A DNA stretch of 23,537 bases from positions 1 through 23,537 of IMG/VR virus record IMGVR_UViG_3300027770_000262; one strand, written 5' to 3'. Made by a program: the position numbers and the translations under genes. Position 1 is the first letter of the stretch, and the number at the start of each line of letters is the position of its first letter. This document shows positions 3,727 to 15,673 of the stretch, piece after piece. The stretch is from a virus. The notes under the pieces were generated by a model. It made no database searches and was not told the DNA's origin. It worked only from the letters and a program-made list of their open reading frames with translations.

Positions 3727-4334
3727 AGATAGAGCCTCGCCAATGTGCTGCCCACCTTCTCCACCCTGCTGTAAAGGCTAGATGCCCACTCATACCAAGG
3801 CTCGCGCCGCTCTGGACCATAGTAGTCATGTATAAACACGCTGGCTGCCGGGATCCAGCCGCTCCTGTCATCATAATTGCGTAGGGATTTCTTCTTGGCC
3901 TTGGCTCGAATGGTGGCCAAGATGGAGCCCCGGCAAATCCCATCCACAAAGAAAATATCCGAATCCCAGATATCAATAGGTTCGCCCTCCTCCAGAATTC
4001 CGGGGTTGATATAGCCTGAAGCAAAACAGGGATTCTCCTCATGAGGAACCCCATACCCATAGAATCGAATATCCACAAGCGGCGGTATATAGGCGTAGGT
4101 AAAGTTGGCAAGGCATTCAGAGTTATAGATGGAGGATTTAAGTTCCTCCTCTACCTTACTAAACCATTCAAGATTATGTTCGACCGACACAAATTTGCCC
4201 GTCTTGAAGTATGGGATAAACATGGTGGTTGAGCCGCCAGAGCCCCACTCAACCATCTTTGTGCCGTCAGGCTTGTTGGCCATGAAGTCCTTGAGGTATT
4301 CAATTTCATCTGGATCCAATCGAGGTTCAAGCAT
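3723..4334 (-). CDS. SAM-dependent methyltransferase-like protein
   Basis: 203 residues from ATG 4334, which has AAGGAGG 6 bases upstream. The protein shows a class I Rossmann layout: MVEWGSGGSTTMFIPYF (glycine-rich motif I), GKFVSVEHNLEWFSKVEEEL (acidic/His motif II region), DIFFVDGICRG (motif IV strand, Asp) and a late strand AASVFIHDYYGPERREPW. This resembles the class I methyltransferases found in phage and surface-polysaccharide clusters. The methyl acceptor is unknown, and the lack of a DPPY/NPPF motif argues against an N6-adenine or N4-cytosine DNA methylase. It ends in an ATGA overlap with the next gene. Confidence 0.6.
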   Translation of the reverse strand: MLEPRLDPDEIEYLKDFMANKPDGTKMVEWGSGGSTTMFIPYFKTGKFVSVEHNLEWFSKVEEELKSSIYNSECLANFTYAYIPPLVDIRFYGYGVPHEENPCFASGYINPGILEEGEPIDIWDSDIFFVDGICRGSILATIRAKAKKKSLRNYDDRSGWIPAASVFIHDYYGPERREPWYEWASSLYSRVEKVGSTLARLYL

Positions 4335-4759: not shown

Positions 4760-5020
4760 TTAAAAAGGAACTTCGTCGTTCAGGTCAACATCGCGTCCCC
4801 GAACCTTGGCAGAAGCATCGGTGCGTGCCTCCTTGATGCGGATAGATCCGCTCAAAAACTTCTCGCCGCCATTGGACGGCGTGGTGGACCACGCATTCAT
4901 CCAGTATTCCTTACCATCCTGATCGGTAAAGGTGCCGTTGAAATCGGCGTCCTTCTTGCCATCGCGCTTCTTGTTGTTACGGAAAAGCACGAAGCGGTTA
5001 GTATTGTCGTATTCAGCCAT
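4760..5020 (-). CDS. Small phage protein with SSB-like acidic C-terminal tail
   Basis: 86 residues. MAEYDNTNRFVLFRNNKKRD, an FNGTFTDQDGKEYWMNAW segment and a strand SGSIRIKEA suggest a small beta-barrel. The family (small phage proteins with an N-terminal DNTNRGxLF-type motif) is often found next to ERF genes. The last residues, DLNDEVPF, match the acidic D-x-P-F tail by which bacterial SSBs recruit partner proteins. I infer a single-strand-binding or SSB-mimicking role in the recombination set. ATG 5020 overlaps the upstream TAA (TAATG), with TAGGAG upstream. Confidence 0.65.
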   Translation of the reverse strand: MAEYDNTNRFVLFRNNKKRDGKKDADFNGTFTDQDGKEYWMNAWSTTPSNGGEKFLSGSIRIKEARTDASAKVRGRDVDLNDEVPF

Positions 5021-5349
5021 TACTGGGCTCCTATAAGTTGTTTCTTTCGATCAGCAAACGCCAACCGAATCCTTTCATAAACATCTGGCTTTATTTTCTT
5101 GGCCCAATCAAGCATGTTGATATTGGCTTTCCAATAATCCACCAGACTATCCGTATTGCGCGGCACAATGAGGGCTGCAATAATCAACTCCTCATATGAC
5201 GCCCAATCGAATTCCTTTGCCTCGCTAGAGGACGATACCTCCTGCCGAGCCTGAAGATGCACCTCCAGCTTGGGCTGATCCACGGGCACCACCACCGCCG
5301 GAAGATCCCCCACCATTGGGATTTTGCGTGGCCGCGTTCCCATCGTCAT
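5020..5349 (-). CDS. C-terminal domain of the ERF recombinase in the +1 frame, or separate overlapping gene
   Basis: The open frame is 109 codons and overlaps the last 125 bases of the ERF gene. Its last 60 residues (FDWASYEELIIAALI..., SLVDYWKANINMLDWAKKI, YERIRLAFADRKKQLIGAQ) have the helix-W-x-N-helix-RK layout I associate with the C-terminal domain of ERF proteins, which would normally be continuous with the ERF core. Here it is +1 relative to ERF. It could be reached by programmed +1 frameshifting, by initiation at ATG 5343 (GGAGGAGG just upstream), or the split could be a sequence error. The start coordinate is therefore nominal. Confidence 0.6.
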   Translation of the reverse strand: MTMGTRPRKIPMVGDLPAVVVPVDQPKLEVHLQARQEVSSSSEAKEFDWASYEELIIAALIVPRNTDSLVDYWKANINMLDWAKKIKPDVYERIRLAFADRKKQLIGAQ

Positions 5350-5830
5350 CCTCCTCCGAGGCTACTGCGCCAATCGCGCTGAGCGTATAGCGACGAGCAT
5401 AACTAATTGCACTTCCGATTGACTGCATTTTGTTTACATCACTTGGCAGTGGAAACCTCCACACCATCTCTTCTCCAGAGGAGTGGATAAGCCTAGTCTC
5501 AAGGTGAAACCCCGCATCAATGTCAACAGTCGGGGCTTGAACAACAGAAATCCCGTGCTTTGTGAAAACTGGAATAACTGCATCTCTCACTGCCGACAGA
5601 TCCGCATACCGACTACGAAAATGCGGGTTGGTTTTGTTCATCGCCACGTTCTGGCATTCGGCCTGTGCCTTAGCTAGGGCTGTTGCCAAGTTCTTCTTGA
5701 TATTGTCTGCACCAGTTGGCGACCATGCAATAGTTTCCTGCACATCGTACAGGTGTGCCGGGACGGCGTTCAACCCTGTGTCCAGATCCACATTCTTCAG
5801 CATGTTGTTTGGCGTTGTCTTCTTGGTCAT
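5225..5830 (-). CDS. erf: ERF-family single-strand annealing recombinase
   Basis: 201 residues. The ERF core is clear: ALAKAQAECQNVAMNKTNPH, FRSRYADLSAVRDAVIPVFT, KHGISVVQ (residues about 51-98), and SIGSAISYARRYTLSAIGAV followed by SEEDDDGN (about 138-165). ERF proteins anneal complementary single strands and drive phage recombination and genome circularisation. After residue 166 the frame turns into a Gly/Ser linker (GGGSSGGGGARGSAQAGG) and stops at TAG. The first 53 codons overlap the end of the upstream nuclease in another frame. The start ATG 5830 has no adjacent Shine-Dalgarno, but GGAGG lies at 5855-5859, separated by a GGCGG/CCGCC hairpin (5841-5854). A later start within the overlap is possible. 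Confidence 0.85.
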   Translation of the reverse strand: MTKKTTPNNMLKNVDLDTGLNAVPAHLYDVQETIAWSPTGADNIKKNLATALAKAQAECQNVAMNKTNPHFRSRYADLSAVRDAVIPVFTKHGISVVQAPTVDIDAGFHLETRLIHSSGEEMVWRFPLPSDVNKMQSIGSAISYARRYTLSAIGAVASEEDDDGNAATQNPNGGGSSGGGGARGSAQAGGASSGSAGGIVL

Positions 5831-6560
5831 GTAGCTTAATGGCGGATTTCCGCCCCTCCTTCATAACGGCCCACGTTTCACCTCGTAGCCACCGCTCCTG
5901 ATCTGTACAATATGGGAGTGGCGAGCCGCTGTCAACTAATTTTTTAGCCTCTTGATGATCCCTTACACGATTGTGAACAAAGTGTCCTTGGTCCTCAAGT
6001 GTCCACAGCGGAATATCCACCGTAACCACCTGTGATTGGGGATAGTCGGGCTTAAGTTCTGCCTGTTTCCGCTGCCAATCGCGCAACACAGCCACAATCT
6101 TAAGCGACCTTATGTTGCGCCCGTGTACCAGAGTTGACAGAAACGCATAGCAGTTAAGCTGTTGAATCCATTCAATTTTATCCTCCATAACCGAATACAC
6201 AGAGGTTATTTTGTAGTCGTTGATTTCCCATGTGCCGTCTGCGTTTTCGATCTGCAAATCCACAGCGCCACTGATCTTCCACCCATTGATGGTGGCAAAC
6301 AAACGCTCCTCCACAATGTGGCCCGGAATATTTTTCGACCCCTTTTCAAGGATCTTATGCACTGCCGTGCCAAGCAGCGCCGGAACCCTGTCCACAACAT
6401 CAACCGTAAGGTTGTGGGAATTTAATTCTTGTAGTAGGACTATCCTAGGCGAAGAAATAAGTTGCGTCACCGAGAGAACCGAATCGCCCCTGTCATATTC
6501 GTCATCCTTCACGGCGGCGACTATGACTTCCGGAAGATTAAACTTATTTGTTATTTTCAT
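5670..6560 (-). CDS. RecB/Cas4-like PD-(D/E)XK exonuclease
   Basis: 296 residues from ATG 6560. The motifs follow the RecB nuclease order: GTAVHKILE (H68), WKISGAVDLQ (D101), EINDYKIT (D115-x-K117) and QLNCY (Q134...Y138, the QxxxY motif). The C-terminus has PVRCAGNYCMVANWCRQYQE, three Cys with another upstream (ECGSG or PYCTDQ) that could hold an Fe-S or Zn site as in Cas4/AddB-type nucleases. Such phage exonucleases pair with ERF/RecT annealases and supply the 3' single strands. There is no Shine-Dalgarno before ATG 6560, and a promoter ends 7 bases away, so leaderless translation is predicted. The C-terminal 160 bases overlap the ERF start; the Cys motif in this frame shows the overlap is coding. 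Confidence 0.8.
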   Translation of the reverse strand: MKITNKFNLPEVIVAAVKDDEYDRGDSVLSVTQLISSPRIVLLQELNSHNLTVDVVDRVPALLGTAVHKILEKGSKNIPGHIVEERLFATINGWKISGAVDLQIENADGTWEINDYKITSVYSVMEDKIEWIQQLNCYAFLSTLVHGRNIRSLKIVAVLRDWQRKQAELKPDYPQSQVVTVDIPLWTLEDQGHFVHNRVRDHQEAKKLVDSGSPLPYCTDQERWLRGETWAVMKEGRKSAIKLHDQEDNAKQHAEECGSGHRVERRPGTPVRCAGNYCMVANWCRQYQEELGNSPS

Positions 6561-6596
6561 GTGCCGGAGAATATATGAACATCCTACCTCAGTCAA
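6561..6596 (-). promoter_or_regulatory. Sigma70-like promoter for leaderless leftward operon
   Basis: On the minus strand: -35 TTGACT (6591-6596; 5 of 6 consensus bases), 17-bp spacer, -10 TATTCT (6568-6573; 4 of 6). The start of transcription, about 7 bases after the -10, falls at 6560-6561, exactly on the ATG of the nuclease gene. The promoter lies inside the first codons of the divergent rusA gene, so the two operons are packed with only 14 bases between start codons. Confidence 0.6.
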
Positions 6597-6928
6597 CAAT
6601 AACTTTTACAATCGACGGCGAGCCCGCATCAAAGTCCAACGGTAGGCGATGGACGGGCAAGTATTTAATCAAATCACAGAAGGCCCTGAACTACGGGGTT
6701 ATGTTTAAACAGCAATGCCCCCTACTAGAGCCACTAATGGAGGGGGATTTAAGGGTAACGATCCGCATATGGTACGCCTCCCGCCGCCCAGACCTAGACC
6801 CATCCCTGATCTTCGACCTCATGCAGGGGTGCATCTATTCAAACGATAGGCAGATCAAAGAGCAGCATCTCTATTGGGGATTAAACAAGGAGAACCCCCA
6901 CTCCATCATTACGGTGGAGCGGATGTGA
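6575..6928 (+). CDS. rusA: RusA-family Holliday-junction resolvase
   Basis: 117 residues; GGAGA lies 5 bases before ATG 6575. The N-terminal strand FTIDGEPASKSNGRR, then LIKSQKALNY, a strand VTIRIWYASRRPDLDPSLIF and the end CIYSNDRQIKEQHLYWGL give the RusA pattern: D73, D75 and D81 in RRPDLDPSLIFD and D91 in SNDRQI. RusA dimers cut four-way junctions symmetrically and resolve recombination or replication intermediates before packaging. The usual DN after the second Asp is DP here and the usual Lys a few residues on is replaced, a variant also seen in other phage RusA-like proteins. Its TGA overlaps the next ATG (TGATG). Confidence 0.85.
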   Translation: MNILPQSTITFTIDGEPASKSNGRRWTGKYLIKSQKALNYGVMFKQQCPLLEPLMEGDLRVTIRIWYASRRPDLDPSLIFDLMQGCIYSNDRQIKEQHLYWGLNKENPHSIITVERM

Positions 6929-13625: not shown

Positions 13626-14450
13626 TCACGCCTCTTCCCCCCGGCCACCGTATTGCTTGACCATTCGCTCCAGCCATACCTCGGGCTTCTTGAACTCATC
13701 AGTCTGGAACACTGGCGGCACGAATAGAATCTCGCCATCAAACCATTGAGCGAGAAACTTGGGAGCAAGCCTCCTCCAATCGTCTACATTACTGAGCGGC
13801 CATCCTCCACCGCATCCAAAGGTGGATTGCAGGAGCCTGTAGAGCATCCCACGGCTCACGCCCCCGCTGCTCACCTGAAAGGCTGCGCGGGCTAGATCCA
13901 GAGGGCTGCTTTCCAACTGAAACCAAGCGGTTGAGCCATCAACCCCACGCCCGTAAGACAGGCCAGCACCTAGCCAGATAGTCACGGGGCGCAGCGAGGA
14001 AAGGATGCGGGCTAGCGCCAGAATAGCTGTGCCGCGCGTCACCAGATAGTCGGCTGGTATGCCGCCGCTGGAGGTGAGATCTATGCAGATAGTGAGGGGG
14101 GCGGCAGCGTCAGCAGTACGGCGGCGCTGCCTCATATCCATAGGCTGACAAGCAAGCATGGCGGGGACGTTAGGAACACCGCCAGCCACGTCATCGAACA
14201 CCTTGTAGCGTGAGGTGGGGAAATCGAATTTGTCCTCCAGCAGCGCCAGCATTTTGTCGGATTGTGGGACGGTGGAGAGGTCGCCCGTCTCGAATGACTT
14301 AAAACATTCCCCTCTGCCCACGCCCACCCATGAGGCGAGCCATCCCCCATCATCGCAGATTGGCTCGCACTTCTCGCGGGTCTCGCGCTGGCTTTCAAGC
14401 TTCGCGCATCGCATGCGCTTGCCATTGATTGTTGTGACGGTTTCAAACAT
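13626..14450 (-). CDS. VWA-like (DUF7192-type) partner of the MoxR ATPase
   Basis: 274 residues from ATG 14450 (GGAG 7 bases upstream). A Cys-containing N-terminus (KRMRCAKLES, CEPICDDGGWLASW) precedes a VWA-like core: LTICIDLTSSGGIPADYLVT (D124-x-T-S, a partial MIDAS), then RGTAILALARILSSLRPVTI and WLGAGLSYGRG. Later, SSPLDLARAAFQVS and a C-terminal FDGEILFVPPVFQTDEFKKP. Phage genes of this kind sit beside MoxR-like ATPases. VWA partners of MoxR proteins act as substrate adaptors for remodelling complexes. The MIDAS is degenerate, so metal binding is uncertain. Confidence 0.65.
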   Translation of the reverse strand: MFETVTTINGKRMRCAKLESQRETREKCEPICDDGGWLASWVGVGRGECFKSFETGDLSTVPQSDKMLALLEDKFDFPTSRYKVFDDVAGGVPNVPAMLACQPMDMRQRRRTADAAAPLTICIDLTSSGGIPADYLVTRGTAILALARILSSLRPVTIWLGAGLSYGRGVDGSTAWFQLESSPLDLARAAFQVSSGGVSRGMLYRLLQSTFGCGGGWPLSNVDDWRRLAPKFLAQWFDGEILFVPPVFQTDEFKKPEVWLERMVKQYGGRGEEA

Positions 14451-14487
14451 TGATATGCTCCATGTTACGGGTTGAGGTGAATAGGTG

Positions 14488-14505
14488 GGGGCGTTTACAC
14501 GCCCT
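14488..14505 (-). other. Stop codon in a GUAA-tetraloop hairpin
   Basis: On the minus strand GGGCGT, GTAA, ACGCCC (14489-14504) forms a 6-bp stem with a GNRA-class tetraloop. The TAA of the AAA ATPase gene is within the loop. The hairpin contains the repeated 9-mer GTGTAAACG. Confidence 0.65.
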
Positions 14506-15673
14506 CCACAATCTTGCGCTGCTCATCAGACAGGGGGGCGAGGTAGGTGAGGTTTGCGGCTTCATCTTCAGTGAAGCCGCCAGCGATGTAGGCCGCTCCT
14601 GCCGCCGTGTGGCGCGTGTCAATGCCCAGTTTGAGGCCAGCAGCCTTGGCACGGGCACGGGCAGCTTGTACCCGCACCGCAAACCTCACGTTGCCGCAGA
14701 AGGCTTGCTCCAGCGCCGGGTCTATATCCCACCGCAGTTTAGCGGGGAATCGTGAGAGGAAGGCGGCGTCGAGCTTGTTGCGGCCTATGTAGTCGTTGGT
14801 CGCACCCAGTCCCCAAGTGTTCGCACCGCCGATAATGATGCAATCCTTGTGACGCTCAACAAAGCGGCCATCCGGCAGCGTCATGTAATTATTGGCAAGG
14901 GGCCCGTTGAGCGACAGCGTGGGGTTTGTTTCGTAGCTGTCGATTTCATCCATCTGGATGACGCCGCCATTGATGAAGCAATCCACGAAAGCGGTCGAGT
15001 GATACTTACCGTGCCCATCCACGAACCCCATCACCTCATGCGCCATCGCCAGTGTGCCCATGACGTAGAAGTCAAGGCCTAGTGCCAGTGCCAATGCGCG
15101 TCCGGCGTGAGATTTGCCGGAAGATTTTTCCCCCATCACCCAAACATTAGGCACATAGCCGTTCGCGGCGCGGCACGTCATCATGCGAAGCAGCGTTGCG
15201 AACATGGGATGATGCAGCCCCTCCACCTTGACGGGCTCCATGCCCTGCCGCTCCAGTTCAATACGCACCGTGGGGATACCGGCCAGAGCAGTGTTGATTT
15301 GATCCGTGACGATAGCCCGCACCGTGTCCTCGCTCACGGCATTGGCCAGCACCCGGTTGAAGGCGTCAGCCAGTGCATTACCGGCGTTGCCTCCTGCCTT
15401 AGTCTCGACCTTGGTTTCGGCCTGCCCGATCGTTTCGGCCTGCTGAGATTTGCCAGCGTCGAGCCCCTCCACCACCAGCGTGCCGTCGAGGTGAAGGCGG
15501 CGCAGATTGCGGGTTGCGGTGTCGGCCTTATCGGTGGGGATCGTCACGGACAGGACCGCGCCAGCGTAGATGCTTGCTGCGCGGGTTTTCCCAACGCCGG
15601 GAATATATTGCACGTCACGTAGGAATGCGTCGAGGGTAGATGCGGCGCTGCCGCGCTTGATATTCACAAGCAT
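14495..15673 (-). CDS. MoxR-like AAA+ ATPase
   Basis: 392 residues; GGAGAAC precedes ATG 15673. An N-terminal region of about 150 residues (GVGKTRAASIYAGAVLSVTI, then an Ala/Lys/Gln linker) has no recognised domain. The AAA+ module follows: NVWVMGEKSSGKSHAGRALA (Walker A 181-188), GGVIQMDEIDSYETN (Walker B 238-245), CIIIGGANTWGLG (sensor 1 N285) and FLSRFPAKLRWDID (Arg finger R308). The order matches the AAA_5/MoxR group. MoxR proteins form hexamers that remodel or activate partners presented by VWA proteins, and here the VWA-like gene follows directly. The target is unknown. The gene ends inside a hairpin. Confidence 0.85.
   Translation of the reverse strand: MLVNIKRGSAASTLDAFLRDVQYIPGVGKTRAASIYAGAVLSVTIPTDKADTATRNLRRLHLDGTLVVEGLDAGKSQQAETIGQAETKVETKAGGNAGNALADAFNRVLANAVSEDTVRAIVTDQINTALAGIPTVRIELERQGMEPVKVEGLHHPMFATLLRMMTCRAANGYVPNVWVMGEKSSGKSHAGRALALALGLDFYVMGTLAMAHEVMGFVDGHGKYHSTAFVDCFINGGVIQMDEIDSYETNPTLSLNGPLANNYMTLPDGRFVERHKDCIIIGGANTWGLGATNDYIGRNKLDAAFLSRFPAKLRWDIDPALEQAFCGNVRFAVRVQAARARAKAAGLKLGIDTRHTAAGAAYIAGGFTEDEAANLTYLAPLSDEQRKIVEGV

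Follow-up and report, generated by a model that had tools for sequence, protein, structure and literature searches.

Gene arrangement at the ERF locus

The window, by which we mean the whole 23,537-base virus record that was analysed (IMGVR_UViG_3300027770_000262), carries on its minus strand four adjoining genes in the order exonuclease, ERF annealase, ERF C-terminal domain and SSB (Table 1). The ERF annealase core gene was recognised by PF04404 and by two PHROG families, and the profile of the clade to which the window belongs also matched Gp77 (9y6u), an ERF relative of solved structure, with an E-value of 3.7e-23. An AlphaFold2 model of the ERF core was poor (mean pLDDT 57) and was left unused. 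The ERF frame finishes with a Gly/Ser-rich stretch followed by TAG, and the domain that usually follows the core in the same polypeptide of ERFs, although outside the Pfam definition, is absent from it; this domain is encoded in the +1 frame in 13 of 13 clade members. The maximal extent of the +1 ORF is 5349-5020, which corresponds to 109 aa from the ATG at 5349 and 107 aa from the ATG at 5343, and 125 bases are open in both frames. The zero frame of the window ends with GCA GGA GGT ATC GTC CTC TAG C. The ORF coordinates, the length of the two-frame stretch and this terminal sequence had all been given correctly in a first-pass annotation of the window.

Table 1. Features of the ERF locus, with positions numbered along the window.
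Feature	Position	Strand	Description and evidence
Exonuclease gene, PD-(D/E)XK	5670-6599	minus	PHROG 2139, PF12705; upstream of ERF; start codon putative
Gene for the ERF annealase core, zero frame	5830-5225	minus	201 aa, TAG at 5227-5225; PF04404 77.9 bits (curated cut-off 25), PHROG 2324/155; kept in 12 relatives
Shine-Dalgarno (SD)-like AGGAGG	5350-5355	minus	6 nt before ATG 5343; ERF codons E159-E160-D161; pairing to anti-SD -12.1 kcal/mol
Internal ATG	5341-5343	minus	Needs the GAT codon of ERF D163; GAT in 13/13
+1-frame gene, split-off ERF C-terminal domain	5343-5020	minus	107 aa, ATG 5343, TAA 5022-5020; 13 members align from a common Met; frame under selection from the ATG
Dual-coded overlap	5225-5343	minus	119 nt; silent-site change 0.10 in the first 13 codons vs 0.48 in the ERF core
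Zero-frame tail GGIVL-stop, proposed slip site	5225-5242	minus	Tail pattern in 13/13; codons used and stop differ among members
Folded helical domain of the +1 protein, residues 43-107	5023-5217	minus	hhalign, model with pLDDT about 90, BFVD matches
SSB-like gene	4760-5020	minus	86 aa, ends NDEVPF; PHROG 18154/7364; downstream of the C-domain gene

The neighbouring genes are also tightly packed. The 3' end of the exonuclease gene overlaps the start of the ERF gene out of frame by 161 nt (5670-5830) in the window and by 158-215 nt across 13 of 13 members; silent change is lowered in this overlap as well as in that between the ERF and C-domain frames described below. At the other end, the ATG of the SSB-like gene and the stop codon of the C-domain gene have one base in common in the window, and wherever the SSB start was located, it is no more than a few bases away from the C-domain stop. 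In contig L004, the gene past the C-domain (after position 3802) does not encode the usual SSB-like protein, as it starts with MANFVPKPNTGRVWPNKYRK, yet NDEVPF is found at its end.

Two further observations were made on the minus strand of the window. At 5828-5870, a GGAGG SD-like element is located about 25 nt upstream of the ERF ATG, with the GC-rich hairpin GGCGG-AAAT-CCGCC in between; a similar hairpin is possible in relatives, where the pairing falls in differing registers and so gives no covariation support. At 13626-15673, there are ORFs that resemble, by eye, a MoxR-like ATPase (14495-15673) and a companion gene (13626-14450).

The +1-frame protein and the distribution of the split

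We searched viral contigs with each frame separately and thereby found 12 relatives of the window. Together, the +1 proteins of the 13 members aligned from a common Met, with the N-terminus M-A-x-R-R-R-I-P-M-V-G-D, a variable linker that is proline-rich in some members, and a domain with the consensus F-D-W ... L-V-D-x-W-K-x-N-x-N-M-L-D-W-A-K-K ... R-I-R-x-A-F-x-x-R-K. No match for the +1 protein was found among Pfam and PHROG families or by tblastn against 50,697 phage records, and a search of the bacterial/archaeal genome collection gave no relative of it.

The domain profile was then compared by hhalign with the tails of in-frame ERFs. Against the pooled tails, the probability was 93% and the score was 39.1, as compared with 15.7 for the best of 100 column shuffles, and a broader set of 13 ERF tails gave a probability of 96% and a score of 44.7 (unshuffled), the hhalign E-values being those of single comparisons and uncalibrated. 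Comparisons of the domain with single distant ERF tails were mostly insignificant; L127, L116 and the pooled profiles gave the signal. The C-domain is predicted to fold into a unit of four helices, at a pLDDT around 90. Its best fold matches in BFVD, a set of viral predicted structures, were Erf and SAK3 proteins; over the whole list of matches the E-values ranged from 0.01 to 0.5 with a Foldseek probability near 1, with those to Erf proteins at E 0.014-0.23 and probability 1.00, and Bet proteins lower down at E 0.3-0.5 only. A fold search of the PDB yielded nothing significant (best Foldseek E 2.1), and the best VIA-align Z against the PDB, 8.2 to PheRS, was within the noise for helical bundles. 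Taken together, the 13-member alignment, the hhalign scores and the BFVD matches support the first-pass assignment of the +1 ORF as a typical ERF C-terminal domain.

Several stand-alone viral proteins of 62-75 aa (for example, A0A516L599, A0A7D9N094 and A0A516MIR1) share the predicted fold of the ERF C-domain when the model of 5023-5343 is used as the query. On this structural likeness, freed ERF C-domains may exist in other phages too.

The two-frame layout was present in 13 of 13 clade members, that is, in the window and the 12 related viral contigs. All 12 relatives share the end point of the ERF frame and have the same +1 ORF, with 41-74% identity among the +1 proteins; the distance from EEDDDG to the zero-frame stop varies from 111 to 144 nt across members. 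The comparison with related phages that had been suggested in the first-pass annotation thus revealed a two-frame structure kept without exception in these contigs. The same annotation had considered a sequencing error, and the fact that ERFs are single-frame outside the clade would agree with one gene having been broken by an error of sequencing or assembly. However, 12 further contigs share the identical split despite differing linker lengths, and both frames are under selection; therefore, this explanation is refuted and we assign it practically no probability. It is just as hard to credit that the +1 ORF is an untranslated leftover of the C-terminal domain, given that the domain and its N-terminus are kept in the 13 members at the above level of identity with no stop, and that silent sites are constrained within the overlap.

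Outside the clade, a comparable split, namely a short zero-frame end together with a +1 ORF past it, was found in none of 121 distinct ERFs. The ERF tail after the motif had a median length of 90 aa in this set and was 60 aa or shorter in only three. Two ERFs from a Flavobacteriaceae metagenome bin (L140 and L149) stop 23-31 aa past the motif, with no +1 ORF beyond the stop. An Erf match in MW202520 reached into two annotated genes; these overlap on opposite strands and so do not represent a split. In the open-licence literature searched, for which coverage was partial, a split ERF was not reported.

Single continuous ERFs among relatives had been named in advance as evidence against a genuine split. 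Such ERFs were indeed found, but all of them lie outside the clade, indicating that the split is derived and not an error. In the ERF-core tree, the 13 split members formed one group (90/99), and the nearest outgroups, L059, L060, L012 and L137, were all single-frame (100/94). Hence, the split probably arose once, from a one-piece gene, as judged from the tree. The ERF split in this clade is real, conserved and derived.

Selection and translation signals in the two frames

Silent-site change between relatives was 0.48 in the ERF core and only 0.10 across the 13 codons that follow ATG 5343 (Mann-Whitney p 3e-5 overall, and 1e-5 and 3e-4 inside the two sub-clades, under the assumption that codon columns are independent). 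In the rest of the overlap, it was 0.16 in the window's sub-clade and 0.46 in the other sub-clade. Differences in the ERF core fell mostly at third codon positions (0.52-0.63), and in the overlap they shifted to first ERF codon positions (0.42 in the window's sub-clade), a pattern that is expected if protection acts on the +1 frame. In the last five zero-frame codons, the differences were at third positions again (0.53-0.54) and the tail (G/D)-G-(I/V)-x-(L/F) was preserved in 13 of 13 members, indicating that the zero-frame protein really ends there. On these substitution patterns, the zero-frame tail is separately protected and the +1 frame is under selection upstream of the zero-frame stop, the latter being what internal initiation predicts for a second frame within an overlap.

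The first-pass annotation had proposed that ribosomes slip at CTC-TAG-C as in prfB. Programmed +1 shifting of this kind where the zero frame stops, together with the upstream AGGAGG, would produce a full-length fusion of ERF and the C-domain, consistent with the C-domain being part of ERF in relatives, with the GGAGG before the stop in the window and some relatives, and with the CTN Leu codon that precedes the stop in 12 of 13 members. However, every element of this site varied among the 13 members: the pre-stop codon was CTC in 9, CTT in 2, CTA in 1 and TTC in 1, the stop was TGA in 9, TAA in 3 and TAG in 1, and the base after the stop also differed among relatives. Furthermore, AGGAGG before the stop was exact in the window only; GGAGG was found in six relatives and neither form in L007 and L040-L044. 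The shift site of RF2, CUU_U, is highly conserved and shifted far more efficiently than the other variants tested (PMC5009743). Neither CUU_U nor another +1 re-pairing site was conserved here, where +1 movement of a tRNA from CUC or CUA would leave it mismatched at the middle position, and the spacing from AGGAGG to CTC in the window was 7 nt instead of the 3 nt that separate the SD from the shift codon in prfB. In addition, a shift at the stop would leave the upstream +1 frame free to drift and gives no explanation for its selection; since the silent sites are constrained, the +1 frame is used from the ATG onward. Slippage at the stop is thus very improbable, and the proposal was dropped.

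We then examined the start of the +1 frame. An SD-like stretch and an ATG with proper spacing occurred at the same position in 13 of 13 members, within the ERF codons GAR GAG GAY GAY GAT GG that specify E-E-D-D-D-G. The SD was weaker in L008-L010 (GAAGAGG, -5.8 kcal/mol) than in the window. The first two Asp codons of EEDDDG varied, but the third, from which the ATG derives, was GAT in 13 of 13 members; among ERFs outside the clade, as counted in the ERF-tail survey with a narrow motif, it was GAT in 25 and GAC in 31. Note that EEDDDG is conserved in ERF, so that the SD and the ATG are partly forced by the protein, and the invariant GAT supplies the sole free base of the ATG. The other possible start codon, ATG 5349, directly abuts the SD with no spacer and is replaced by ACG in L002 and L004, and a start at ATG 5343 is therefore the likely one. 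Internal initiation at ATG 5343 behind GGAGGAGG, which was the first alternative offered by the earlier annotation, is accordingly favoured by the conservation of the SD and ATG, the invariant GAT and the drop in silent-site change.

If ribosomes shifted to +1 near EEDDDGN, early in the overlap, the +1 frame that follows would equally come under selection. Shifting ribosomes would make a fused protein and the others the short form, which agrees both with the selection on +1 downstream of the motif and with the protection of the zero-frame tail. However, no conserved slippery sequence was recognised near EEDDDGN, and the invariant GAT, the ATG-GC start context and the spacing after the SD would all be left unaccounted for, making an early shift unlikely.

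From the sequence comparisons, we consider it highly probable that two proteins are made from one mRNA stretch through two independent starts, the second being ATG 5343. Translation from the ERF start (5830) would run through the annealase core and the linker to 5227-5225 and yield a 201-aa annealase whose short tail is conserved. Other ribosomes would bind the SD in the EEDDDG codons and enter the +1 frame at ATG 5343; their product, a C-domain protein of 107 aa, would correspond to the helical domain held in the same polypeptide by ERFs outside the clade. In this small group of uncultured phages, the combination of ERF with a separate out-of-frame C-domain amounts to a known protein arranged in a new way and not to a new type of decoding.

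Possible role of the freed domain and comparison with known systems

The C-terminal region of annealases is dispensable for annealing and serves partner contacts (PMC11783212). Specifically, the C-terminal domain of Red-beta interacts with lambda exonuclease and potentially with SSB (PMC9512822), and its truncation abolished recombination but not annealing (PMC5052646). By analogy, the freed C-domain could be an adaptor acting in trans. A wider scenario can be offered tentatively, as one that we hold to be possible but somewhat short of even chances: the codons of EEDDDGN, a motif found in nearly all ERFs, provided a ready-made SD and +1 ATG, a single indel in the linker, the presumed cause of the split, divided the gene with the C-domain kept, and the two halves were retained as separately dosed proteins, with the domain serving as a trans adaptor between exonuclease, annealase and SSB.

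The locus represents a clear natural fission of a gene into out-of-frame overlapping genes, in which the second start would lie inside the codons of a conserved motif. As the annealing core is separated from the presumed partner-binding domain, action of the domain in trans becomes testable. Gene finders that do not permit extended overlaps would overlook the second gene or cut it short.

Compared with the ERF family (PF04404; P22 Erf and relatives), the clade has the common core, the EEDDDGN motif, a homologous C-terminal helical domain and an adjacent SSB gene. In that family, however, the C-domain is in frame, whereas here the core and the C-domain are two out-of-frame overlapping genes. 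Lambda Red-beta, like the clade, combines an annealing core with a small C-terminal helical domain and has an adjacent exonuclease gene, and its domain mediates partner contacts; the likeness to the clade domain is an analogy, given that Bet folds matched only at E 0.3-0.5. Moreover, Red-beta is a single polypeptide whereas the clade annealase would be two. The window resembles prfB (RF2) in that an SD-like AGGAGG precedes a Leu codon and a stop, but the window lacks CUU_U, the spacing differs, the element is unconserved in relatives and the stop is not always TGA. Out-of-frame overlap with an internal start is also seen in the phage genes D/E of phiX174 and Rz/Rz1 of lambda. As in the clade, an internal SD and start lie within another gene and both frames are selected; unlike in those pairs, the second gene here encodes a domain that belongs to the upstream protein in relatives.
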